Under the pieces are notes generated by a model. It searched no databases. It saw only the letters and a program-made list of their open reading frames with translations, and was not told the DNA's origin. Positions 595-25,550 of a DNA stretch of 44,313 bases are shown here, piece by piece. Numbering within the stretch: the first letter of the stretch is position 1; each line of letters opens with the position of its first letter. The stretch comes from Nitriliruptorales bacterium (GTDB lineage Bacteria > Actinomycetota > Nitriliruptoria > Euzebyales > JAHELV01), in NCBI GenBank assembly GCA_024644015.1, contig JAHELV010000029.1, positions 1 to 44,313 of the forward strand, written 5' to 3'. The translations under genes were made by a program, and so were the position numbers.

Positions 595-2247
595 ATGCGC
601 AAGACCACGTACGAACCCGGCACGATCGTCAGGTGGCGCATCGATGCCGATCCGACACCCCGACCGACTGCGTCCCACGCCCTCGACGGCGGATCATGGA
701 CCTTGACCGAGCATGCTGCCACGGGCATGCGGTACCTGCGCACGCTGGTGGCGCTGTTCGCGACGCTGGTCCTGTTCGCTGCGGGCACCATGCCCGCCCT
801 CGCCGGCCCCGGCAACGGCAACGGCAACGGCGGTGGCGGTGGCGGTGGCGGTGGGACTCAGAGCTGCAGCAACGTGCTGGGCGAGTTCACCACGACGTCA
901 CTGACCGAGGTCCGCCAACAGATCGGCGCGGACACCGCGCCGAACCTGACGGGAGCCGGCGTCGGCGTCGCCGTGATCGATACAGGCATCAACCGGGTCA
1001 ACGGCCTGAACGGCAGCGGCAAGGTCATCGACGGGCCCGATCTGTCGTTCGACGCCCTCAATGCCAACCTGCGGCACCGCGACCTGCACGGGCACGGCAC
1101 CAACATGGCCGCGATCATCGCCGGGCAGGGCACCACGGGCGGCAACGGCGTCGCGCCGGGCGCGCACCTGGTCAACGTCAAGGTCGGCACGGGTGACGGC
1201 ACCGTCGACGTGTCGCAGGTGATCGCTGCGATCGACTGGGTCGTGCAGAACAAGTCCAGCCACAACATCCGGGTGATCAACCTCGCGTACGACACCGACG
1301 CCTCCCAGAGCTACATCCTCGACCCGCTGTCCCACGCCGTCGAGAACGCCTGGAAGGCCGGGATCGTCGTGGTGGTCGCCGGCGGCAACGACGGCCGCGG
1401 CATCCGCCGGCTGGGCAACCCCGCGACCAACCCGTTCGTCATCGCAGTCGGCGCCACCAACGACTCGGGGTTCAAGGCGGCGACGTGGTCGACGACCGGT
1501 GATGGGGTGCGCAACCCCGACGTCGTCGCACCCGGCACGAACGTGCTCAGCGGCGCGGTGGCCGGTTCGTACCTGGCCGACACCTACCCCGGAGCGCTGT
1601 GCGCCGACAGCCAAGGCGTCCTGTCGCTGCGCGGGTCGGGCACGTCCCAAGCGGCAGCGGTCGTGTCGGGCTCCGCCGCGCTGCTGCTCGAGCAGCGGCC
1701 GAACCTGACGCCCGACCAGGTCAAGTCCCTGCTGCGCAGCACCGCGGTGAACCTCGTTGGCGGCGAGACGCAGGGCGGCAAAGGCAGGATCAACCTGTCC
1801 GCCGCGTTCGCCGCGCCCACCCCCGGCCTGACCGCAGTGCAGACCCACGTCCCGTCGACGGGGCTGGGGTCGCTCGACGCCGCGCGTGGCAGCTTCTACG
1901 TGGGCACGTCGGGTGACTACCTGAATGGTGAGCTGACCGCGTTCGGCGGCACGTGGACGCCGCTGACGTGGAAGACCGCGTCCGACGCGGGGGCGGCGTG
2001 GACCAACCAGACGTTCAGCGGCGCCACCTGGTCCGGTGGTACGTGGATGGGCGCGACCTGGTCCGGCGCAACCTGGTCCGGCGCAACCTGGAGCGGCGCC
2101 ACCTGGAGCGGCGCCACCTGGAGCGGCGCCACCTGGAGCGGCGCCACCTGGAGCGGCGCCACCTGGAGCGGCGCCACCTGGAGCGGCGCCACCTGGTCCG
2201 GCGCCACCTGGAGCGGCGCCACCTGGTCGGGTGCGACGTGGCTGTAG
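595..2247 (+). CDS. secreted S8 subtilisin-like protease with SGATW repeat tail
   Basis: This is a subtilase-family serine endopeptidase of about 550 residues, predicted to be exported. The triad is visible: Asp129 in VAVIDTG, His167 in HGHGTNMA and Ser351 in GSGTSQAA (GTSQ instead of the common GTSM). A Gly/Asn-rich linker follows the export signal. After the catalytic domain come about 60 residues ([19 protein letters not shown]) and then 15 units of SGATW to the C-terminus. The ATG at 595 has a strong Shine-Dalgarno (GGAGGAG, 583-589), but it puts about 44 residues before the hydrophobic signal. The ATG at 727 gives a textbook signal peptide ([17 protein letters not shown]...ALA) without a clear ribosome site. 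An ATG at 508 is also in frame. It is the first gene of a three-gene operon; the next protease starts 50 bases after its stop. Confidence 0.88.
2017..2241 (+). repeat. 15-bp tandem repeat encoding 15 SGATW units
   Basis: Fifteen in-frame 15-base units encode Ser-Gly-Ala-Thr-Trp. The second unit is SGGTW and the third MGATW. Units 6-12 are identical at the DNA level (AGCGGCGCCACCTGG), while outer units use TCC or TCG serine and GCA or GCG alanine codons. The homogeneous core with diverged edges is the pattern expected from slippage or unequal crossing-over. A fixed period of five with one Trp per unit suggests a regular solenoid or cell-wall-binding surface; that role is inference. Confidence 0.97.
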
Positions 2248-2297
2248 TCACGGTCAAGCCAGGACGGCAGGCCAGACGACACGGAGGGACGACGGCC

Positions 2298-3956
2298 ATG
2301 AGCAGCACGACACGGACCGCGCACCGGCAGTGGCTTGCCGTGCTACTCCTCGCGGCGCTGGTGGTGGGGCTGGGCGCGAGCCCCGCCGCCGCCGCCCGCG
2401 GCGGCGGCAAGGGCCCCACCAGGAACACCGACACCGCAGACTCCACCACGACCGCGTCGTATGACCCAGTCGCCGCGTTGGGGTCGCTGTACAACGTCGT
2501 CGACCAGATCAACGCGCGCCCACTGTGGGAGCACGGCATCACCGGCGACGGCGTCGACGTCGCCGTCATCGACACCGGCGTCGCGCCCGTCCCCGCCCTG
2601 ACCGGCGCGGACAAGGTCACCGCCATGGTCGACCTGTCCTTCGAGGCCGAGGTGCCCGAGGCCACCTACCTCGACACCAACGGCCACGGCAGCCACATGA
2701 CCGGGATCATCGCGGGCCGCGACCCCGGCGCCGACCCCGCCACCGCCCGCCGACGCCCCCACGAGTTCCTCGGCGTCGCACCCGACGCCGGCATCGTGTC
2801 GGTCAAGGTCGGCGACAACACCGGCGCCGTCGACGTCTCACAGGTCATCGCCGGCATCGACTGGGTGATCGAGCACCGCACCGCCGGCGACCTCAACATC
2901 CGCGTCATCAACCTGTCCTACGGCACCGACTCGACACAGAACTACCGCGTCGATCCCCTCGCCCGCGCCGTCGAACGCGCCTGGGACCACGGCATCGTCG
3001 TGGTCGCCGCATCCGGCAACGACGGCTGGAACAACTCCACCGGCGGCATGACCAACCCCGCGAAGGACCCCTACGTCATCGCCGTGTCGGCCGCCGAGGC
3101 CACGAAGCGCGGCATGACCATCCCCCGCTGGGCCAGCGCCGGTGACTTCTACTCCACCGACGAGAACGGCCGCAAGGCGCAGTACTGGCAGGACGGCTTC
3201 ACCGGCCGGCTGCCCGACGTCGTCGCCCCCGGCGCCCACATCGACAGCCTGCGTGTGCCCGGCTCCCGCGTCGCGACCGAGCACTCCGAAGGCTACGTCA
3301 CCGACCTGCTGCAACGTGGCAGCGGCACCTCCCAGGCCGCCGCCGTGGTCTCCGGCGCAGCCGCGCTGCTGCTCGACCACCGCCCCGACCTGACCCCCGA
3401 CCAGGTCAAGGCGCTGCTGCGCGACACCGCCACCCCACTGGGCTGGGGCGAAGCCATCGAAGGCCAGGGCGTCATCGACATCGCTGCCGCCGCCCGCACC
3501 GCAGCCCCCCACGTCACCCAGACGTGGGAACGTTCCACCGGGCTGGGGTCGCTCGAGGCCGCCCGCGGCACCCAGCACGTCACCGTCGACGGCTCCGTGC
3601 TCGAGGGCGAAACCACCGCCTTCGGCTCGGCATGGGACGCCCAGGCGTGGACCGAAGCCTCCGCACTCGGAGCGTCGTGGACCGGCGCCAGCTGGACCGG
3701 CGCCTCCTGGACCGGCGCGTCGTGGACCGGCGCCTCCTGGACCGGCGCGTCGTGGACCGGCGCCTCCTGGACCGGCGCCTCCTGGACCGGCGCCTCCTGG
3801 ACCGGCGCCTCCTGGACCGGCGCGTCGTGGACCGGCGCCAGCTGGACCGGCGCCAGCTGGACCGGCGCGTCGTGGACCGGCGCGTCGTGGACCGGCGCCA
3901 GCTGGACCGGCGCCAGCTGGACCGGCGCCTCCTGGACCGGTGACCGCTGGTCGTGA
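2298..3956 (+). CDS. secreted S8 subtilisin-like protease with TGASW repeat tail
   Basis: This 552-residue protein is a tandem paralogue of the preceding protease. The ATG at 2298 has a GGAGGG site nine bases upstream and begins a classical signal peptide ([21 protein letters not shown]). The subtilase triad is Asp92 in VAVIDTG, His130 in NGHGSHM and Ser345 in GSGTSQAA. Sequence between the triad residues matches the first protease closely ([24 protein letters not shown]). The region after the catalytic domain repeats the other protein's linker ([19 protein letters not shown]). The tail is 17 TGASW units ending TGDRWS. Its stop overlaps the GTG start of the cyclic di-GMP enzyme, so the two should be translated together. 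Confidence 0.93.
3681..3935 (+). repeat. 15-bp tandem repeat encoding 17 TGASW units
   Basis: Seventeen consecutive 15-base units encode Thr-Gly-Ala-Ser-Trp, followed by one degenerate TGDRW unit. The protein sequence is invariant while the DNA is a mosaic: the Ala-Ser codons occur as GCC-AGC, GCC-TCC or GCG-TCG in mixed order. An invariant protein with varied synonymous codons points to selection on the amino-acid repeat rather than only recent expansion. Confidence 0.97.
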
Positions 3957-6544
3957 CCATCCCCGAGCAGACTGGCGCCGGCGTACCGTTCGCCGCGCCA
4001 CAGAGCAGGATCTGGCTGCTGTCAACACTGGCAGCCGGATCCGCTCTGCTGCTGCTCACGGCTATCCCCGACCCAACCCAAGCCCTCTACGAAGCAGGCT
4101 GGTGGAGCGTCGCGGTTGTGTTCGCCGGCTTCATCGTCAGTGAACCGATGGTGTTCCACGTCGAAGCCCGCAACGAAGCCGTGAGCTTCTCCCCGAGCGA
4201 GATACCACTGGCTTTCGGACTGCTCTTGCTGTCCCCGCAGACCCTGCTGATCGTGCGGATCGGCGCAGCGGCGATCGCGCTGGCCCATTGGCGTCGGCCG
4301 CCGCCGTTCAAGCTCGGCCTGAATCTGGCGGCGTTCGCCGTCGAGACCGTCGTCGCGGTGGCCGTGTTGCGCACCGTGGTCGGTGCCGGCGCCGGCGTTG
4401 GGCCAGCGTTGTGGGCGGGACTCATCGCGTCCCTGTTGGCCGGGCTCGTTGCCGGTGGCGTGACCATCGCCACGGCCATCTCGTTCTTCGAAGGGTCCTT
4501 CACCGAGCGCGTACGCAAGGAGTTCACGCACAGCTACCTCTTCTACCTTCCCGGTGCCGTGTTGGGTGCGTCCACCACGACGCCCTACCTCGTCGACAAA
4601 TGGCTCGTGCTGGTCTTCGTCTTGCCTGCCCCCCTCGTGTGGCTCGTGCTGCGGTCGCACGGATCGCTGATGCACCGCTACGTCGACCTCAGCCAGATCC
4701 ATGCGTTCAGCAGCCAGGTGGGCCGGTCGACGCACCTCGGGGACATCGCCGAGACGGCCGTCAAGGAGATCTCCGGTCATCTCCGGGCCGCAACCGTCGC
4801 GCTCGTGGTGTACGACGAGGCCGGACGGATGGTCGAGGCCTCTCTTGGCAATCGCGGCCTACTCGACGCGCTCCCGGACGGACCCGATGACGGTGTCTGG
4901 TGGGCGAGGATCCAAAGCCCCACCCTGTTCACCGTCAACGCCCAGAGCAACGATCCACTGGCCCGGTCCCTGGGCGACGCCGGTATCGAGGACGCCATCG
5001 TCGTGCCGCTCGCCGACGACACCGACTCGGTCGGCGTGCTCGTCGTCGCCGATCGCCGTGGGGCGGTCAAGCACTTCGACGCCCACGACCTGGAACGGCT
5101 CCGTCCGCTGAGCCAGCAGCTGACGGTCGCGTTGCGCAAGGGACAGCTGCACGTGCAGATCCAGCACAAGGCGCTCCACGACCGGCTGACCGGGCTGCCC
5201 AACCGCGCCTACTTCGATGCATGGGTCGGCCAGTGTCTCAGCACGGCCGGAGGCCAGCGCGCGGCGGTGCTGATGATCGACCTCGACCGCTTCAAAGAGG
5301 TCAACGACACGCTCGGCCACCATGCCGGCGATCAGCTGCTCATCGAGGTCACCAACCGCCTGTTGAACGTGGTCGACGACGCCGCCATGGTCGCGCGCTT
5401 CGGTGGCGACGAGTTCGCCGTGTTCGCTCCCCATGTCCGCGAAGGCGACATCCACAGGCTCGCGGAGGACATAAGCGAAGCCCTTGAAGAGCCCATAGCG
5501 CTCAAAGGCACGTCGGTGGCCATCGCGGGCAGCATCGGAGTCGCATTCGCGCCGGACCACGGTACGGACAGCGACACGCTGCTGCGCCGGGCCGACATGG
5601 CGATGTACGAGGCGAAGCGCCGGCACGAGCGGTCGGAGGTCTTCCGTCCCGAGTTTGAAGGAAGCGATTCGGTGCGCCTCGCGCTTCTCGGCGATCTACG
5701 CGGCGCGCTCAGTACGGGAACGATCGCCGTGCACTTCCAGCCCCAGATGGACCTTCGCAGTGAGGTCGTGCACAGCGTTGAGGCGCTCGCACGCTGGCAG
5801 CACCCCGCCCACGGCGAGATAACCCCGGACATCTTCATCCCGCTCGCCGAACAGGCGGGACTCATCGGCCGGCTGACGCAGCACGTACTGGACGAGGCCC
5901 TCGATGCGGCCCGTCACTGGCTGGACAACGGCGACGAGATCGGCGTCGCGGTGAACGTCAGCGCACAGAGCCTGCTCAACGAGAGCCTCCCCCGCGCGGT
6001 CTCCGGCTCGCTTCGTCGCGCTGGAGTGCCGGCGCACCTGTTGACGCTGGAGATCACAGAGGGTGCCATGATCGGAGACTCGTCCAGGACGAAGGACGTG
6101 CTCGAGCACCTCGATCAGCTGGGCGTGAGGATCTCGGTCGACGATTTCGGCACCGGCTACTCCTCCATGATGAACCTACGCCATCTGCCGATCTCCGAAT
6201 TGAAGATCGACCGCAGCTTCGTCTCCGAGATGCTCGTGGGGTCCAACGACCGGGTCATCGTCAGCTCGGCCGTCGATCTGGGCCACAACCTCGGGATGTC
6301 GGTGGTCGCCGAAGGTGTCGAGACCCGCGAGGTCGAGGCCCAGCTGCGCGCCCTGGGATGCGACCTCGCCCAGGGCTACGGCATCTGCAGGCCACTGCCG
6401 CTCGACAAACTCGACCTGTTCCTGGACTCGGCCGCGACCCGGGCCACCCCGCCGGGACCGTCGCGCACACGCACCACCCCGCTCGCACCGACGCCTTCGC
6501 TCTCTCAGCTCGGGCCGGATGTCGCATGGCCCAGGTCACCGTAG
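3953..6544 (+). CDS. membrane GAF-GGDEF-EAL cyclic di-GMP enzyme
   Basis: This 863-residue bifunctional-type cyclic di-GMP protein starts with a GTG that overlaps the upstream protease stop (GTGA). About 230 N-terminal residues form six to eight membrane segments (for example WWSVAVVFAGFIV, LAFGLLLL, LVLVFVLPAPLVWLVL). A GAF-like sensor domain spans roughly 250-395. The diguanylate cyclase domain has an intact RFGGDEF motif near residue 483, preceded by HDRLTGLPNR. No RxxD inhibitory site is visible at its usual place before GGDEF. The phosphodiesterase domain has EALARWQHP near 610, LEITEG, DDFGTGYSS, ELKIDRSF and AEGVET, so its metal and catalytic residues look intact. Both synthesis and hydrolysis are possible; the net activity cannot be read. 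Its operon position suggests control of, or response to, the secreted proteases. Confidence 0.92.
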   Translation: MTIPEQTGAGVPFAAPQSRIWLLSTLAAGSALLLLTAIPDPTQALYEAGWWSVAVVFAGFIVSEPMVFHVEARNEAVSFSPSEIPLAFGLLLLSPQTLLIVRIGAAAIALAHWRRPPPFKLGLNLAAFAVETVVAVAVLRTVVGAGAGVGPALWAGLIASLLAGLVAGGVTIATAISFFEGSFTERVRKEFTHSYLFYLPGAVLGASTTTPYLVDKWLVLVFVLPAPLVWLVLRSHGSLMHRYVDLSQIHAFSSQVGRSTHLGDIAETAVKEISGHLRAATVALVVYDEAGRMVEASLGNRGLLDALPDGPDDGVWWARIQSPTLFTVNAQSNDPLARSLGDAGIEDAIVVPLADDTDSVGVLVVADRRGAVKHFDAHDLERLRPLSQQLTVALRKGQLHVQIQHKALHDRLTGLPNRAYFDAWVGQCLSTAGGQRAAVLMIDLDRFKEVNDTLGHHAGDQLLIEVTNRLLNVVDDAAMVARFGGDEFAVFAPHVREGDIHRLAEDISEALEEPIALKGTSVAIAGSIGVAFAPDHGTDSDTLLRRADMAMYEAKRRHERSEVFRPEFEGSDSVRLALLGDLRGALSTGTIAVHFQPQMDLRSEVVHSVEALARWQHPAHGEITPDIFIPLAEQAGLIGRLTQHVLDEALDAARHWLDNGDEIGVAVNVSAQSLLNESLPRAVSGSLRRAGVPAHLLTLEITEGAMIGDSSRTKDVLEHLDQLGVRISVDDFGTGYSSMMNLRHLPISELKIDRSFVSEMLVGSNDRVIVSSAVDLGHNLGMSVVAEGVETREVEAQLRALGCDLAQGYGICRPLPLDKLDLFLDSAATRATPPGPSRTRTTPLAPTPSLSQLGPDVAWPRSP

Positions 6545-6659
6545 GCGTCATGCCCGAGGCGCGCACCCGGTGACACCCGCGCGACGCCAATGGCCGCGCG
6601 TGCGACATCCGCGGGCACCGTGGGCGCGACACCCAGCGCGCGGCGTGTCTCCGGCGCTG

Positions 6660-7100
6660 TCAGCCGAGACCGGCGTCGTCTCCGTCCTGCCCGAACCAGA
6701 GGTGCCCCAGGCCCGCGCTGTGAGCCGCTGCACGCATGGTCGCGTGACGGGCCTTCGTGCCACCGTCGCGGAACGCGGCGATCGCTTCGGGCACCTCGCT
6801 GGCCCGGACGGCCGCCGTCGCCCCACCCATCAACACCGCGACGCCGGCGGCCTCCAGAACCTCCTGATCCGTGGCACCGACCGCGAGCGCGTCGTGCACA
6901 TGTACCGGAATGAGCCGGTCCTCCGGGAGCGCGACCGCGACCGCGACCGCCACCAGTTCCTTTGCCTTCGGCGACAGCGCGCCAGCGGCAAGGGTTTCGC
7001 GCTGCAGGACCGCGAGCCCCTCGATCGGACCCGGCAGGGCGGCTCCCAGGCGCCCCATCGCGTCGCGCAACCTGGTCCACGCCGTATAGACGTCGCTCAC
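6660..7100 (-). CDS. carboxymuconolactone decarboxylase/AhpD-fold protein lacking CxxC
   Basis: This 146-residue all-helical protein starts at GTG 7100 with GGAGG five bases upstream. The core resembles the carboxymuconolactone decarboxylase family: LSPKAKELVAVAVAVAL, then HVHDALAVGATDQEVLEAAGVAVLMGGATA. Family members with peroxidase or disulfide activity carry CxxC just before the HVxDAL segment. Here the corresponding residues read EDRL, so both cysteines are missing. The protein is therefore unlikely to be an AhpD-type thiol reductase and may belong to a non-redox branch. It is divergent from the F420-type iron-sulfur gene and convergent with the cyclic di-GMP gene. Confidence 0.8.
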   Translation of the reverse strand: MSDVYTAWTRLRDAMGRLGAALPGPIEGLAVLQRETLAAGALSPKAKELVAVAVAVALPEDRLIPVHVHDALAVGATDQEVLEAAGVAVLMGGATAAVRASEVPEAIAAFRDGGTKARHATMRAAAHSAGLGHLWFGQDGDDAGLG

Positions 7101-7384
7101 ATCGGCCTCCTGCGCTCGGCCGGTCGGTGGGCTCCGCAGGACCGTGCGCGGCCATCACTGTCGCACGGCGCCCGGCCCGCTCGGGTCGCGAAGGTCCCGA
7201 CGACGTCAGGCACATCGGCCCCGGTTCGTGCGCTCGGGACGACACGGTCGTGCCGGCCGGCGGCGGTCTCCTCAGCGGTCGGGGCCCCACTGGCTCGAGT
7301 TTCACGGACGTCCTGCGCCGGGAGTGTTGTCACGGGCCGCGCCGCCTGCGACGCTGTGATCTGACCGGCGCGGAGGAGACCCCG

Positions 7385-8626: not shown

Positions 8627-11600
8627 TCAGCCCGCGTGGATCGCCGCGGTGAGCGCTTCGACGATACGGGGGCCGCGGCGTTGGTAACCCAGCTCACCCA
8701 TCAGTTCGTCGATGAGCTGCTCTTCGGTCCGCAGCAGCGTGTCCGACGTGACCCACCGGACCAGGCCGACGAGCTCGTCCTGGCTGTACTGCGTGATCGG
8801 CGCGCCCGGACGGATCACGGGCCGACGCCCATGGCGGACCGGTGTGACCGGCACGGGCGCCTCCGGTGCCGGTGCACCGTCGTCGTCGCCCGCCGCATCC
8901 CGGCGAGCCGGCGCGTCCAGGTCACGGCACGCCTCGTCATAGGCCATCGCGATCTGGTGTGCCTGCGTCACCGGATCGGCGCACCAGTCGGTCGACCAGA
9001 CCCGGTGATGCCGCCACCCGAGGCGTTCAAGGACGTCACGGCGGAGCCGGTCCCGGTCGCGGGTCGTCGGGGCCCTGCGGTAGCCCGCGCCATCAGCCTC
9101 GACGGCCAGCACCATCTGCTCCGGGTCCTCCGGGTGCGCGAGCGCCACGTCGACGCGCAACGCCGACGCGCCGTAGCCGGCGGTGGCAGGCAGTCCGATG
9201 TGCTCGAGGTGCTCGACGATGTCGGCGGCCAGCGCATCGACGGCGTTGCCGGTCTGGCCGTGGTCGATCGGCTGCCCGCCTGATTCGACGTAGTGCAGGT
9301 ACCGCCGCAACAGCGTGACTCCGGCCGCAGCCGAGCGGCCCGCATGCATGTCGGCGTGCGCGAAGGACGACACCACCGTGAGCCGTCGCCGCGCGCGGGT
9401 CATGGCCACGTTCAACCGGCGCTCGCCGCCATCGGTCACCAGCGGACCGAAGTGGTACCGCAGCTGCCCGTCGGACCCCTTGCCGTAACCGATCGTCAGG
9501 ATGATCGCGTCGCGTTCGTCGCCCTGCACGCGTTCGAGGTTCTTGACGAACGCGCGCTCAGTCGCGTTGTCGTCGAAGAACCGCTCGAGCTCGCGGTCAC
9601 CCTCGGCCGCGAGCCGGTCGCGCAGCGCCGCCTCGACGCGGTCGGCGTGGTGGCGGCCCAGCGCGATCACGCCGAGCGACTCCGCCGAGCGGCGCCGGGC
9701 GTGATCGAGCATCAGGTCGACGACGCGGCGCACCTCGACGTCGTTGCTGCGCGTGTCGGTCACGGCACCGGGACGCTGCCGGACCAGTTCGTGGCGCAGG
9801 CAGTCGGGGGTGTTGGCGCCTGGGAAGGTGATCAGCCGCCCGTCATAGATGTGGTGGTTTGCGAACGCGATCAACGGCTCGGCGCGGGAACGGTAGTGCC
9901 AGGTCAACAGGTAGCTGCGCAGCAGGGTGTCGAGCACGTCCAGGATCGACTCGAACCCGATCGTCAGTCCCCCAGCGTCAGCCTCCGCGTCGTCGTCGGT
10001 CTCGCCGGTGTCGGTGTCGAAGAACCTGGTTGGCGGCAGCTGGTGGCGATCGCCGGCGACGACGGCCTGGGGTGCGCGCAACAGCGCCGGAACCGCGTCG
10101 GCAGGCAGCACCTGGCTTGCCTCGTCGAAGATCACCACGTCGAAGAGCGGCGCCGCGGGAAGCGTCTGCGACACCACGAGCGGTGACATCGCCCAGCACG
10201 GCCGCAGCGCCGTCAACACGTCAGGCGCCTGTTCGAAGAGTGCCCGCAGCGGCAGGTGCCCGCGTTTGCGACGGACCTGTCGCGCGATGAGGTCGTCCTG
10301 ATCGCCGTGCCGGTCGCGGACGCGGGTGGCGTGCTCGGCCACCGCGCGGAGAACCCGTGCCGCGGTGACGTCGACGTGCCGGCGGTCGGCCGCGCGGAAT
10401 CGCTCGGCATGGTCGTGGAGCAGCGCCCCGTCGAAGTCGGACAGTCGCGGATCCTGCGCGGTGATGGTCATGCGGATCGACATCAGCCACATGTGATCGA
10501 ACACGACACCCGCGTGCTGGCCGTCGACCTCGCCCTCTGAGAGCGCTCGCAGCAGTGGCGCCAGGTGGTGGTCGGCCAGCCAGGCCTCCAGCTCGAATAC
10601 CCGGGGCAACCGGAACAGCATGATCTGGTCGGCGAGCAGCGCGTCGAGATCGACGCGAAGCTTGCTGTGCGGCCGCACGGTCAGATCCCGGCGCCCCATG
10701 TGCGCATTGAGCGCGCCCAGCTGCTGCATCAGGGTGTCGTAGGCCGCGAGCGCCCCGTCGATGTCCGACGGCTGTGGCGGACCGGTACCACCGAGCTGCC
10801 GCCACTGGTCGAACTGGTCGCGCGCGGCCACGGCCGCATCGCGCAGCTGGCGGGTGCTTGGCTTGGACTCCCCGGTCCAGCATCCCAGGAGGGTCTGACG
10901 GGCGGCGCGGAAGGACTTGTCGAACAGGGTCGCCGCCGCACGACGCGGCCAGCCGGCGACAGCGGGACGTAGTGCGCTGAGCAACCCGCCGAGGTCGAGG
11001 TCGAACACCCTCGCGTCGAACCGGGCGGCCGTCTCGGCGAAGCCCCGCAGCAGGCTGAGCGGCTGAGCCCACGCGTCGATGGTCGGCGGTGGCGGCAGGT
11101 CGGTTTCGGACAGCAGCCGCTCGAGGTGCGCGACCGCCGCGGGCGCGGTGGTGTGGGCCAGCGTCGTCACGAGCTCGAGCGCGGCTCGCGCGTCGGAACG
11201 TGTCGTGACGACGGCCCCGGTCCACGCCGACTGCTGGCAGATCAGCGGCTCACAGAGCCGGACCCACTCGGTCAGCGCATCCCGTGCCTCGCGGGCCGTC
11301 TGCGCGTTGAGGTCGTCGAGCTGCGAGCCGGCGAGGCGCAGAGGCGTCTGAGCGTCGGCGGGCAGACCGAGCAACCGCTCGTTGATGGTGAACAGCGACA
11401 CATCCCACGGCGGCCGCACCTCGTGCACCGCGACGGCGTGGCCTGTCAGCGCCCTGCGGCTGGTCAGCAACTCATGATGCAGCTCGGCGTGGTCGGCAGC
11501 GGGGACGCGGCCGATTCTGTCGAGTGTCGCGCCGAGCTCGCCGGCGAGCTCCTGCCTGGAGGTCACGCCGCCGTGCAGGTCCATGACCAGGTCGCTCAGC

Positions 11601-12685
11601 CCGACACGGCCGAGGCGCGCCGTGACCGCCTCGATCGCCGCCCGCTTCTCGGCCACGAACAGCACGCGCCGACCGTTCGCAGCCAACGCGCTGATCAGGT
11701 TCGCGATGGTCTGCGACTTGCCGGTGCCCGGTGGCCCCTGGATGATCAGCGGCTGTCCGTCGAGCGCCGCGTTGATCGCCGCCTGCTGGGACGCGTCGGC
11801 GTCGAGGATCAGGTACTCGTCCTCGGGTGGGGTGCGGTCAGGGCGACGAGGGTCGACCTCGTGCGCCCGCAACTGACGCAGCGCCTGCTGGGCGCCCTCG
11901 ACGCCGGCGATCGCCGCAATCACGTCGTGTGCGGCGAGCCGGTCGACGTTGTCCCGCAGGTCGGTGACCATCGGCAGTTTGGTGTAGGCGAACGTGCCGA
12001 CGATGGTGTTGTCGCGGACCGCGAAGTCCGGCACGTCGGCCGCCGCGTCGCTGAGCTGCGCGAACAGCGCGGCCGGGTCGATGTCGGCGTCGCTCGACGC
12101 GTCGAGGGCGCCCAGCAACTCGTCGGCGTCGATCATGGTGGCGAACTCGGAGCGCAACAGGTGCAGCAACGTCTCGTTGACCTGCCAGTCGCCGTGCACG
12201 CGGACGTCGAAGTCGGCACGTGCGGCACCGCGCGGGGTCAGGCGCAGCGGACGCAGAAGCACCGGCGCCGCCGGCGTCGCGGCGCTCGTGGTCGCGCGCC
12301 AGGTCGCGAGGCCAAGGGCCAGGAACAGCGTGTCGATGCCGCGTTCCTCGAAGTGTGCCCGCGCCTTGCCGTAGATGGTTCGTGCGCGCGCGACAGCGTC
12401 GTAGTCGTCCGTGTCGTCCGAACCGTACAGCTGGGACAACCGCACCGGCATCTGCGACATCAGCGCTGCCACCGACGGTGCAGAGGCGTGCCGGAGATCG
12501 AGCGTGCCACGCGCGAGGGTGCGGTAGTACAGCAGCTGGTTGCGGCCTGACAGGTCGATCAGCTGATCGGTCCAGGCCTTGACCGCCCGCGTCAGGGTGA
12601 CGCGCCGGCGGTCGCTGACCAGTGCGGACCCTTCACTGCCCTGCCCGGTGGTGGCACGGTCGTGCAGCTGTTCCACGGGCACCAC
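8627..12685 (-). CDS. DUF4011-superfamily 1 helicase-Vsr-like nuclease-DUF3320 protein
   Basis: This is a 1,352-residue multidomain protein. The GTG at 12685 is preceded by GAGGTGATCA, a near-perfect anti-Shine-Dalgarno match. Domains in order: DUF4011 N-terminus (WTDQLIDLSGRNQLLYYRT, about 35-60); superfamily 1 helicase with Walker A GPPGTGKSQT near 315; Walker B region FDVVIFDEASQVLPAD near 855 and DRHQLPP; helicase motif VAMTRARRRL near 1095; a PD-(D/E)xK/Vsr-like domain (RVDVALAHP, VLAVEADGAGYR, RDRDRLRRDVLERLGW, VWSTDW) near 1185-1230; and a DUF3320-like end. I recall this order being reported as a single-gene antiphage system named Hhe, which should be verified. All key residues look intact. 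It is divergent from the unknown membrane protein, 224 bases apart. Confidence 0.88.
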   Translation of the reverse strand: MVPVEQLHDRATTGQGSEGSALVSDRRRVTLTRAVKAWTDQLIDLSGRNQLLYYRTLARGTLDLRHASAPSVAALMSQMPVRLSQLYGSDDTDDYDAVARARTIYGKARAHFEERGIDTLFLALGLATWRATTSAATPAAPVLLRPLRLTPRGAARADFDVRVHGDWQVNETLLHLLRSEFATMIDADELLGALDASSDADIDPAALFAQLSDAAADVPDFAVRDNTIVGTFAYTKLPMVTDLRDNVDRLAAHDVIAAIAGVEGAQQALRQLRAHEVDPRRPDRTPPEDEYLILDADASQQAAINAALDGQPLIIQGPPGTGKSQTIANLISALAANGRRVLFVAEKRAAIEAVTARLGRVGLSDLVMDLHGGVTSRQELAGELGATLDRIGRVPAADHAELHHELLTSRRALTGHAVAVHEVRPPWDVSLFTINERLLGLPADAQTPLRLAGSQLDDLNAQTAREARDALTEWVRLCEPLICQQSAWTGAVVTTRSDARAALELVTTLAHTTAPAAVAHLERLLSETDLPPPPTIDAWAQPLSLLRGFAETAARFDARVFDLDLGGLLSALRPAVAGWPRRAAATLFDKSFRAARQTLLGCWTGESKPSTRQLRDAAVAARDQFDQWRQLGGTGPPQPSDIDGALAAYDTLMQQLGALNAHMGRRDLTVRPHSKLRVDLDALLADQIMLFRLPRVFELEAWLADHHLAPLLRALSEGEVDGQHAGVVFDHMWLMSIRMTITAQDPRLSDFDGALLHDHAERFRAADRRHVDVTAARVLRAVAEHATRVRDRHGDQDDLIARQVRRKRGHLPLRALFEQAPDVLTALRPCWAMSPLVVSQTLPAAPLFDVVIFDEASQVLPADAVPALLRAPQAVVAGDRHQLPPTRFFDTDTGETDDDAEADAGGLTIGFESILDVLDTLLRSYLLTWHYRSRAEPLIAFANHHIYDGRLITFPGANTPDCLRHELVRQRPGAVTDTRSNDVEVRRVVDLMLDHARRRSAESLGVIALGRHHADRVEAALRDRLAAEGDRELERFFDDNATERAFVKNLERVQGDERDAIILTIGYGKGSDGQLRYHFGPLVTDGGERRLNVAMTRARRRLTVVSSFAHADMHAGRSAAAGVTLLRRYLHYVESGGQPIDHGQTGNAVDALAADIVEHLEHIGLPATAGYGASALRVDVALAHPEDPEQMVLAVEADGAGYRRAPTTRDRDRLRRDVLERLGWRHHRVWSTDWCADPVTQAHQIAMAYDEACRDLDAPARRDAAGDDDGAPAPEAPVPVTPVRHGRRPVIRPGAPITQYSQDELVGLVRWVTSDTLLRTEEQLIDELMGELGYQRRGPRIVEALTAAIHAG

Positions 12686-22436: not shown

Positions 22437-24623
22437 TCACCCGCGGCGCGTTGACCCGACCGGCAATGGCTGCCTGCCGAGCAGCCTGCCGACACCCGCG
22501 GCGTTGACCGCCGGTGAGAAGTAGGAGCCCTGCGCCAGGTCGCAGCCCAGCAGCCGCAGCTGCTCGACCTGCGTGTCGTCGCGCACCCCTTCGGCGACGA
22601 CGTCAAGGTCGAGATCGTGGGCCAGTCGAACCAGCGCGGCAGTCACCGCGCGGGCCTTCTCACCGCCGGACGTCAATCGGGACAGCGGGCGCACGAACGC
22701 CGCATCGAGCTTGAGCGTGTCGAGCGGCAACGTGTGCAGGTAGACGAGGTTGGAGTAACCGGTGCCGAAGTCGTCGACGGCGATGCGGACGCCCATGTCG
22801 TCGAGTGCCTGCAGCGCTTCGAGCGGCCTGCCCGGTGGCCCCATGACGGCGCTCTCGGTCAACTCGAGCTGGAGCGAGGAGGCGGGCAGGCCGGTGTTCC
22901 GCAGCACCGCGGCGACCTCGTCGACAAGATCGTGCTCGTGCAACTGGCGGACCGAGACGTTCACGCTGATGAACAGCTCCCGCTCGGGGGCGGCCCGCCG
23001 CCACTGTTGCAGCTTGCTGCAGGCGCGCTCCAGCACCGCTCGACCGAGGGCGACGATGGCTCCGGTGTCCTCCGCGATCCTGATGAACTGGTCGGGCGGG
23101 ACCCGGCCGATGTGGGGGTGCTGCCAGCGGACCAGCGCCTCGGCGCCGCGGATCACGCCGTCGTCGGTCGAAACGATCGGTGCGTAGTCGATGACGAACT
23201 CGTCACGCGCCAGCGCGCCGGGCAGCCTGGAGGCCAGCGCCAAGCGGTTCGAGTCCCGCCGGCTCCGCTCCTCGTCGTAGACCTCGCAGTGGCCGCTGCC
23301 CGCGTCCTTCGCCCAGTACAGCGTGACGTCGGCCGCCTTCATCACGTCGGCTGGTGTGGTGCCCACGACGGGGCGCTCGACGACCCCGACACTGGCGTTG
23401 AGCACGACCCGATGACCGGCCACCGCGAACGGCTCTGCGAGGGCGCGCTGCGCGGCTGTGGCGAGCGCGAGCACCCGGTCGACGCCGGATGTGTCCTCGA
23501 CGAGCATGGCGAATTCGTCGCCACCCAATCGCGCGACGAGGTGCTCGTCGGCGGCCTGCTCGAGCCGGCGGGCGACCGCACCCAGGAGCTCGTCGCCGAC
23601 GTCGTGACCAAGCGAGTCGTTGACGGGCTTGAACCCGTCCAGGTCGAGGTAGCACACCCCGACCCGCCCCTCACCCAACTCCACCGCCGACCGCAGCCTG
23701 TCCATGAACACGACGCGGTTCGGCAGGCCAGTGAGCGCATCGTGTCGTGCCTGATGCTCGAGGCGTTTGCGAAGCGTGCGCTGCTCCGAGACGTCTTCGG
23801 CCATCGCCAGCAGCTGCTGTGGCCGGCCGTCGGCGTCACGGATCAGAGAGATCGTGAGGTTCGTCCACACCGTCGAGCCATCACGATGTGTGTAGGGCCA
23901 CTCGAGCCGAACGTGGTCCCGCCGCCCGTGCGCCAGGTCCGCGTACAAACGCTGCGCGGTGGGATCGGCCCGCTGGTTGACGAACTCGGTCACCAGGTGA
24001 CGACGGAACTCCTCGACCGTGTATCCCAGCATGTCTGCGAACGCACGGTTGACGTCGACGATGCGGCCCCCCATGTCACTGACGCCGATACCGACGGCCG
24101 CGTTGTCGAACACCGCCCGAAAGCTCGCCTCGCTCGTGCGCAGCTGCGACCGCACGTCGACCTCGGCCGAACGGATCGCCTCCTGTTGAGCGAACATGCG
24201 GGAGCGAACGGCCTGCACATAGCCGGTTGCGACCGCGCCGCAGACCATTGCGAGACGGGCTCGTGCATCCACGTCATCGCCACATAGCCCGGCCGCGTCC
24301 AGCAGGTCACGCACGAGTACATCGAGCGTACGTCCCAGGGCGCGAGCGCTGACGACGCTTGCCTCTGCGACTTCGGCCCCGACAACGGACGCGCGATCGA
24401 CCGCGACCGTGTCGGCGCTGACGATCTCCACCAGCCGATCCGTCAGGCGCAGGAGCAGCTGCGACAGTTCCTCGTGGCTGAGGGCGTAGTCCCGTCGGTC
24501 CGCCAGCGCGGCCGACCAGGCGGCTGCCATGCCGTTGCGAACGCCGTTTTCTGAGCGCGCATCACCTGAGGCGTTCACCGGCGCACGCGGGGTAGAAGCA
24601 CCAGGGCCCTGCGTCATATTCAT
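22437..24623 (-). CDS. PAS-GGDEF-EAL cyclic di-GMP protein
   Basis: This cytoplasmic-type protein has about 728 residues from ATG 24623; the frame is open to 24749 and an ATG at 24530 is also possible. No start has a clear ribosome site. An N-terminal helical, globin- or RsbR-like region of about 150 residues precedes a PAS domain (FRAVFDNAAVGIGVSD, DVNRAFADMLGYTVEEF, PAC-like YTHRDGSTVWTNLTISLI). The GGDEF domain (HDALTGLPNR, RLGGDEFAML near residue 367) lacks a visible RxxD inhibitory site. The EAL domain (AEALVRWQHP near 497, ELTESAVMG, VDDFGTGYSN, LKLDAAF, VVAEGV) looks catalytically complete. It is divergent from the methyltransferase gene and not closely related to the GAF-type protein at 4 kb. 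Confidence 0.88.
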   Translation of the reverse strand: MNMTQGPGASTPRAPVNASGDARSENGVRNGMAAAWSAALADRRDYALSHEELSQLLLRLTDRLVEIVSADTVAVDRASVVGAEVAEASVVSARALGRTLDVLVRDLLDAAGLCGDDVDARARLAMVCGAVATGYVQAVRSRMFAQQEAIRSAEVDVRSQLRTSEASFRAVFDNAAVGIGVSDMGGRIVDVNRAFADMLGYTVEEFRRHLVTEFVNQRADPTAQRLYADLAHGRRDHVRLEWPYTHRDGSTVWTNLTISLIRDADGRPQQLLAMAEDVSEQRTLRKRLEHQARHDALTGLPNRVVFMDRLRSAVELGEGRVGVCYLDLDGFKPVNDSLGHDVGDELLGAVARRLEQAADEHLVARLGGDEFAMLVEDTSGVDRVLALATAAQRALAEPFAVAGHRVVLNASVGVVERPVVGTTPADVMKAADVTLYWAKDAGSGHCEVYDEERSRRDSNRLALASRLPGALARDEFVIDYAPIVSTDDGVIRGAEALVRWQHPHIGRVPPDQFIRIAEDTGAIVALGRAVLERACSKLQQWRRAAPERELFISVNVSVRQLHEHDLVDEVAAVLRNTGLPASSLQLELTESAVMGPPGRPLEALQALDDMGVRIAVDDFGTGYSNLVYLHTLPLDTLKLDAAFVRPLSRLTSGGEKARAVTAALVRLAHDLDLDVVAEGVRDDTQVEQLRLLGCDLAQGSYFSPAVNAAGVGRLLGRQPLPVGSTRRG

Positions 24624-24698
24624 GCAACATAGCGTGCCGAGTTCTCGAGCGACATTCGACGGGTGCATCGGCGGTCCGCGGGGGGTTCGCTTTGACCT

Positions 24699-24704
24699 AG
24701 ACTC
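24699..24704 (+). promoter_or_regulatory. possible -10 element for the methyltransferase gene
   Basis: TAGACT fits the TAnnnT pattern of actinobacterial sigma-70-type -10 elements and lies 40 bases before the ATG at 24744. No convincing -35 is seen. Weak evidence. Confidence 0.25.
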
Positions 24705-24743
24705 GTCGACGCAGCGCACAAGCCGAGCAGGTCGGGGGACCCC

Positions 24744-25550
24744 ATGCAACTACCCGATTGGGCTCCGGAGGGTGTGGACCTCACCAAGCCGAGCGCCGCA
24801 CGGATCTACGACTACATCCTCGGCGGCGGACACAACTTCGCCGTCGACCGCCAGATCGGCAGCGAGCTCGAGCGCACGGCTCCCTATGTCGCCGAGACCA
24901 TGCGCGCGAACCGGCACTTCCTGCGCCGCGCCGTGCGCTTCCTCGTCGCCGAGGGGATGGAGCAGTTCGTCGACATCGGGTCGGGCATACCGACTGCGGG
25001 CAACGTGCACGAGGTCGCGCAGCAGGAGAACCCCGACGCCCGGGTGCTGTACGTCGACATCGACCCGGTGGCGGTCGCGCACAGCCGGCGCATCCTCAAG
25101 GACGACGATCGCACCGTCATCGTGCAGGCCGACGTCCGCGACGGTGACGCGCTGTTCGAGTCGGACGAGCTCCGGCAGCTCATCGACAAGTCACGGCCGA
25201 TCGCGTTGCTGCTGGCCGGCATCATGCATTTCATACCCGACGAGGACGACCCGGTGGCCATTGTCGGCAGGCTCCGCGATCGGCTCGCACGAGGCAGCCA
25301 CGTGGTGATCTCACATGTGACATGGGAAGGTCAGCCACCCGAGGCGATCGAGGCACAACGCCTGTCCGAACGCACTCCGACGAAGATCATCCCGCGGTCG
25401 AAGGCGGAGATCGCCGCGATGTTCGACGGCCTGACCATGATCGAACCTGGACTTGTCCACTTCCCCCTCTGGCGTCCCGACGACCCCGCCGACGTCGTCG
25501 AGCACCCCGAGCGCTACGGCGCGTTCTGCGGCGTCGGCCGCAAGGACTAG
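24744..25550 (+). CDS. SAM-dependent methyltransferase, DUF574-type
   Basis: This 268-residue protein has the N-terminal signature of the actinobacteria-enriched DUF574-type methyltransferase family: VDLTKPSAARIYDYILGGGHNFAVDR. The SAM-binding loop is FVDIGSGIPTAGNVHEVAQ, with the acidic strand end VLYVDIDPVAVAHSR, then IVQADVRDG and LLLAGIMHFIPD. The C-terminus FCGVGRKD is typical. GGGGGAC precedes the ATG. Substrates of this family are largely unknown. It is convergent with the membrane gene downstream. Confidence 0.9.
   Translation: MQLPDWAPEGVDLTKPSAARIYDYILGGGHNFAVDRQIGSELERTAPYVAETMRANRHFLRRAVRFLVAEGMEQFVDIGSGIPTAGNVHEVAQQENPDARVLYVDIDPVAVAHSRRILKDDDRTVIVQADVRDGDALFESDELRQLIDKSRPIALLLAGIMHFIPDEDDPVAIVGRLRDRLARGSHVVISHVTWEGQPPEAIEAQRLSERTPTKIIPRSKAEIAAMFDGLTMIEPGLVHFPLWRPDDPADVVEHPERYGAFCGVGRKD

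Follow-up and report, generated by a model that had tools for sequence, protein, structure and literature searches.

Why would two secreted proteases lie side by side, each ending in a long run of tryptophan-centred pentapeptides, and what could such tails be for? We addressed this question in a Nitriliruptorales bacterium. The window, meaning the whole stretch of 44,313 nucleotides that was analysed, makes up contig C39; the genome comprises 4.0 Mb. It falls in the same order as its cultured relative Euzebya pacifica (G025, recognised by a 100% match to its plasmid), which places the bacterium in the Euzebyales, class Nitriliruptoria, Actinomycetota. The locus is a four-part operon composed of a c-di-GMP riboswitch, two secreted subtilases and one membrane sensor. 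The preliminary description of this DNA had recognised the proteases and their tails, while it overlooked two elements that hold most of the functional information, the riboswitch and a conserved gene for the sensor.

Two secreted subtilases with tryptophan-pentad tails

The protease genes adjoin each other on the same strand:

595-2247, + strand: secreted S8 subtilase 1 (P0001, 550 aa; ORF calling and Pfam)
952-1755, + strand: catalytic domain of subtilase 1 (PF00082)
2017-2244, + strand: tail 1, Trp-centred pentapeptide repeats (TRF, Pfam, unit count, PDB sequence matches)
2298-3956, + strand: secreted S8 subtilase 2 (P0002, 552 aa; ORF calling and Pfam)
2544-3443, + strand: catalytic domain of subtilase 2 (PF00082, AlphaFold, Foldseek)
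3681-3935, + strand: tail 2, 17 TGASW Trp-centred pentapeptide repeats (TRF, unit count, PDB sequence matches)

Both proteins are S8 subtilases by their Asp/His/Ser triad and their Pfam score. Peptidase_S8 (PF00082) matches subtilase 1 with E-values of 2.9e-44 to 8.7e-44 and subtilase 2 with 7.9e-45 to 1.9e-44. The triads are intact (D129/H167/S351 and D92/H130/S345, respectively) and the oxyanion Asn is present in each. In subtilase 2, the AlphaFold model of the catalytic domain has a pLDDT above 90 over most of its length, and Foldseek matches it to subtilisins with an E-value of about 1e-23. Judging from intact triads, Pfam matches and Sec-type signal peptides recognised by eye on both proteins, the earlier picture of two adjacent, secreted and apparently active subtilases is borne out. 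The same holds for the reported lack of common anchors, as the Pfam scan of both proteins found no LPxTG, PPC or SLH domain, and the tails extend to the C-terminus. The genome encodes 7 S8 genes; two other subtilases, on contigs C151 and C101 (L001, L002), carry C-terminal repeats that by eye are SLH-like, unlike the Trp tails.

The unit numbers given before (15 and 17) stand, with one correction: tail 2 consists of exactly 17 TGASW units, but only 13 of the 15 units of tail 1 are exact SGATW, the others being SGGTW and MGATW. TRF places the underlying 15-base arrays at 2017-2226 and 3648-3940. Since three distinct 15-base DNA units in tail 2 all translate to TGASW, its array is not a uniform DNA repeat.

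Tails of the pentapeptide-repeat type with Trp at the centre

The tails had been said to lack any obvious match, and this did not survive the profile search that the preliminary description had called for. Their consensus, A-S/T-W-S/T-G, is of the pentapeptide-repeat (PRP) type with a central Trp replacing Leu/Phe. Pentapeptide_3 scores 27.3 bits on P0001, over its cut-off of 27, and PF00805 falls just below on P0002 (19.7 bits, cut-off 20.2); few relatives match Pfam pentapeptide families. When compared with all PDB sequences, tail 1 matched 17 chains, every one a pentapeptide-repeat protein, and tail 2 matched 21. In that list pentapeptide-repeat proteins take the top 20 places (designed beta1 proteins at E 4.5e-11, Rfr32, QnrB1, Qnr, the MfpA-type 2bm4 and others) and IcmE comes last, at E 4.3. 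Repeats inflate such E-values; a single control, the reversed tail, gave zero matches to PDB sequences. The SGNQW and TGTSW tails of relatives likewise match Qnr and Rfr proteins, and in the alignments Trp falls, in register, on the central Leu/Phe of the PRP unit.

The canonical central residues of PRPs are Leu and Phe (PMC8145042). With 15 and 17 contiguous five-residue units, the tails exceed the eight that define a PRP, but Trp is central in all exact units. Across 50 tails of the family this position is W in 93.7%, F in 2.4% and L in 1.4%. The i-2 residue is Ala in both window tails, and is small in only 44% over 42 sequences; at W+3, where the classical PRP rule asks for a small residue, many relatives have R, N, K or W. 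The full-length AlphaFold model draws period-5 three-residue strands (EEE--) in the tail at low confidence (pLDDT 41-55; 41-56 over all tail models), which leaves the fold putative, and the model of the tail alone is poor (pLDDT 48). Read from its sequence, the tail is a pentapeptide-repeat variant built around Trp. Because of the inflated E-values, the one control and the weak AlphaFold tail, we stop short of classing it with the canonical PRPs. A right-handed quadrilateral beta-helix would be the corresponding fold. The compact solenoid proposed earlier agrees with the PRP-type sequence, while AlphaFold, with and without the catalytic domain, models it with low confidence. Our search of open-licence papers found no description of these repeats or of a subtilase-c-di-GMP module.

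Relatives retain the tryptophan spacing

Homologues at E <1e-40 occur in 17 of the 66 genomes of the class. All homologous loci inspected (29/29) have Trp-pentad C-termini, with variation in the remaining residues of the unit, which speaks against the tail being dispensable among close relatives. A search of 396 genomes of the phylum with the Trp-spacing pattern again returned subtilases, in the true Trp frame; many of the other matches to this pattern were frames of unrelated repeats and were discarded as not being real Trp arrays. The exact-unit DNA pattern matched only the window, because other genomes use different units. Three genomes of the same genus contain neither W-tailed proteases nor the sensor membrane domain described below. 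A distant case was found in Candidatus Polarisedimenticola svalbardensis (L020), where a subtilase at 5500-7323 ends in a six-residue LWSDAV repeat and a kinase carrying the sensor domain lies 1.2 kb downstream.

A membrane sensor gene accompanies the proteases

The third gene begins with a GTG and shares 4 bases with the end of the subtilase 2 gene:

3953-6544, + strand: membrane sensor with an N-terminal multi-helix domain, GAF, GGDEF and EAL (ORF, Pfam)
4013-4666, + strand: conserved N-terminal six-helix membrane domain of the sensor (iterated profile, hydrophobic segments)
5171-5629, + strand: GGDEF domain with an intact GGDEF motif (PF00990, E 1.5e-43)
5693-6394, + strand: EAL domain (PF00563, E 4e-71)

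Residues ~1-220 of the sensor include six hydrophobic segments, and this N-terminal membrane domain matches no Pfam family. An iterated profile built on it showed that the six-helix domain is common to the sensors adjoining W-tailed subtilases, an arrangement seen in dozens of genomes. Among 46 W-tailed subtilases found through protease or Trp searches only, and hence independently of the sensor, 41 share a block with a sensor gene (42 once one of them is read in the wider region L144) and 4 have none nearby. The order, protease then sensor, is conserved. The same membrane domain is joined to GGDEF/EAL in 19 partners and to a histidine kinase in 5, counting those with enough sequence at hand. 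Three S8 genes that have no W tail (L021, L022 and L024) have no sensor gene beside them. The own genome has a single copy of the membrane domain, at this locus, among ten EAL genes. Strong copies of the domain with GGDEF-EAL also occur in L189, L190 and L191, where no subtilase lies within the fetched DNA; as the membrane domain exists with no subtilase nearby, the protease depends on the sensor more than the sensor on the protease. The pairing of protease and sensor is therefore conserved, and its outputs are interchangeable. It suggests contact between the two proteins, for which gene adjacency alone is no proof.

Pairs are repeated at some loci: L145 has the S8-sensor pair three times, L149 has two protease-sensor pairs and L144 shows the order S8-S8-sensor-S8-sensor. 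Elsewhere on the contig of the window, a second GGDEF-EAL protein (22440-24749, - strand) has a PAS domain and is devoid of the six-helix sensor domain. Also on this contig, a large DUF4011 / AAA helicase / MTES_1575 endonuclease protein (8630-12685, - strand) is assigned by PADLOC to the candidate defence family PDC-S37 (E 5e-254) and is also Hhe-like.

A c-di-GMP riboswitch at the start of the operon

Three features lie directly upstream of subtilase 1 or overlap its start:

495-581, + strand: c-di-GMP-II-GAG riboswitch aptamer (RF03169; cmscan, full length)
572-605, + strand: predicted start-codon-sequestering hairpin, arms 572-583 / 594-605 (ViennaRNA)
583-589, + strand: Shine-Dalgarno-like GGAGGAG of subtilase 1, in the hairpin loop region (sequence)

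The aptamer scores 51.0 bits against a gathering score of 40 (E 2.9e-07), it is the sole RF03169 match in the genome, and it is predicted to bind c-di-GMP. The hairpin, predicted at -17.8 kcal/mol for 570-614, holds ATG 595 within its 3' arm, and its 5' arm overlaps the 3' strand of P1 of the aptamer. A similar arrangement exists in an Acidimicrobiaceae MAG (L019), where a c-di-GMP-II aptamer lies just upstream of a W-tailed subtilase and the GGDEF-EAL sensor is divergent. The hairpin there (arms 5853-5861 / 5886-5894, ATG 5887) has the design of that in the window with a different sequence, and in both loci the P1 3' strand can pair with the start-codon region in place of P1. Both are of about -17 kcal/mol, with z of -2.7 in the window and -2.2 in L019 against simple shuffles. 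When the aptamer pairs are enforced in the model, the upper five pairs around the ATG persist, and whether the switch turns expression on or off is therefore only predicted.

No riboswitch was found at the gathering score in other W-tailed loci, and a riboswitch at every locus is rejected, as only the window and L019 have one. Within the class, c-di-GMP-II-like aptamers occur often (27 of 66 genomes, L079-L108); read by eye, they seem to precede genes for secreted proteins and response regulators.

Proposed mechanism and alternatives

We propose that the tail would form a rigid extracellular part, which most likely docks the protease on the exterior of the six-helix sensor or on a shared ligand. 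Protease activity, its products or its occupancy would then set the output of the sensor, which here would be c-di-GMP turnover through GGDEF-EAL. c-di-GMP would feed back on the operon by way of the riboswitch: with ligand bound, P1 should be preferred and the start-codon hairpin weakened, probably freeing the start codon (ON). To this whole reading, a c-di-GMP-regulated secreted protease with a cognate sensor, tail docking and riboswitch feedback, we give an even chance. Its extension to a widespread actinobacterial system, in which a Trp-core beta-helix subtilase acts as dedicated partner to a new sensor-domain class with interchangeable outputs and c-di-GMP riboswitch feedback operates at some loci only, we regard as possible, with the chances slightly against it.

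It could be argued that the tail serves as a display module, binding the wall or a polymer or associating with itself, and is unconnected with the sensor. The sensor would then simply be co-regulated while the protease remodels the cell surface on a c-di-GMP cue. A secreted protease with a Trp-rich tail under riboswitch control fits this idea, and c-di-GMP governs surface proteases elsewhere, such as PPEP-1 of C. difficile and LapG of Pseudomonas. However, 42 of 46 cases show pairing with one particular membrane domain whose outputs are interchangeable, which is more than co-regulation needs, and the Trp side chains would be buried because the central residue of PRPs points inward. We consider this explanation unlikely; binding of the tail to wall polymer, display and self-assembly, as suggested in the preliminary description, gained no support from our analysis. 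A little less probable again is that the protease acts on an extracellular sensor loop, activating or shedding it, and that the tail is a mere spacer or folding aid. The active triads and the conserved order of protease and sensor are in keeping with cleavage of a loop, but a spacer hardly accounts for a tail kept throughout the 29 loci, and a period of five that is retained across differing unit sequences suggests a larger role. Finally, that the tail is disordered low-complexity sequence, expanded from a 15-base DNA repeat and maintained by slippage, is highly improbable, since exact repeats and low AlphaFold confidence are outweighed by a Trp spacing that stays at five while units differ between proteins, by synonymous DNA units within one array, by Phe/Leu substituting for Trp and by PRP matches in register.

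Our preferred reading, a protease docked on its sensor, would connect a protease outside the cell with c-di-GMP or kinase signalling inside it, in a group of actinobacteria that has been little studied, and it provides a concrete candidate pair. The Trp-centred repeats would also extend what the core of a pentapeptide beta-helix may accept. The roles of PRPs beyond gyrase protection and one toxin-receptor case are largely unknown (PMC8145042).

Comparison with known systems

The closest repeat system is that of the PRPs (PF00805, PF13576 and PF13599; Rfr-fold proteins such as QnrB1, 2xtx, Rfr32, 2f3l, and designed beta1, 4yc5). The tails share with them tandem five-residue units in runs of more than 8, in-register matches, and Ala, Ser/Thr and Gly at i-2, i+1 and i+2. 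They differ in having Trp at the centre of almost all units, a departure from the published L/F consensus, S/T at i-1 where PRPs have D/N, a small i-2 rule that is broken in many relatives, and fusion to a secreted protease.

Among S8 subtilases the mycosins (TIGR03921) are the closest by score. They have in common with the window subtilases the subtilisin fold, the triad and the signal peptide, whereas the window proteins have a Trp-repeat tail in place of the C-terminal membrane helix. Assignment to the T7SS mycosins was rejected, as both scores, 144.2 and 155.8 bits, fall short of the TIGR03921 cut-off (278.75).

As in known RF03169 riboswitches, an aptamer above the gathering score lies directly upstream of an operon. 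Here, unlike in those, the target is a protease-sensor operon and the expression platform is a predicted start-codon hairpin.

LapD/LapG resembles the window system by functional analogy only, in combining a protease, a GGDEF-EAL membrane protein and c-di-GMP. LapG is a cysteine protease, whereas those of the window are S8 subtilases, and the sensor differs from LapD in its unrelated multi-helix N-terminal domain, its intact GGDEF motif and the kinase output found at some loci.
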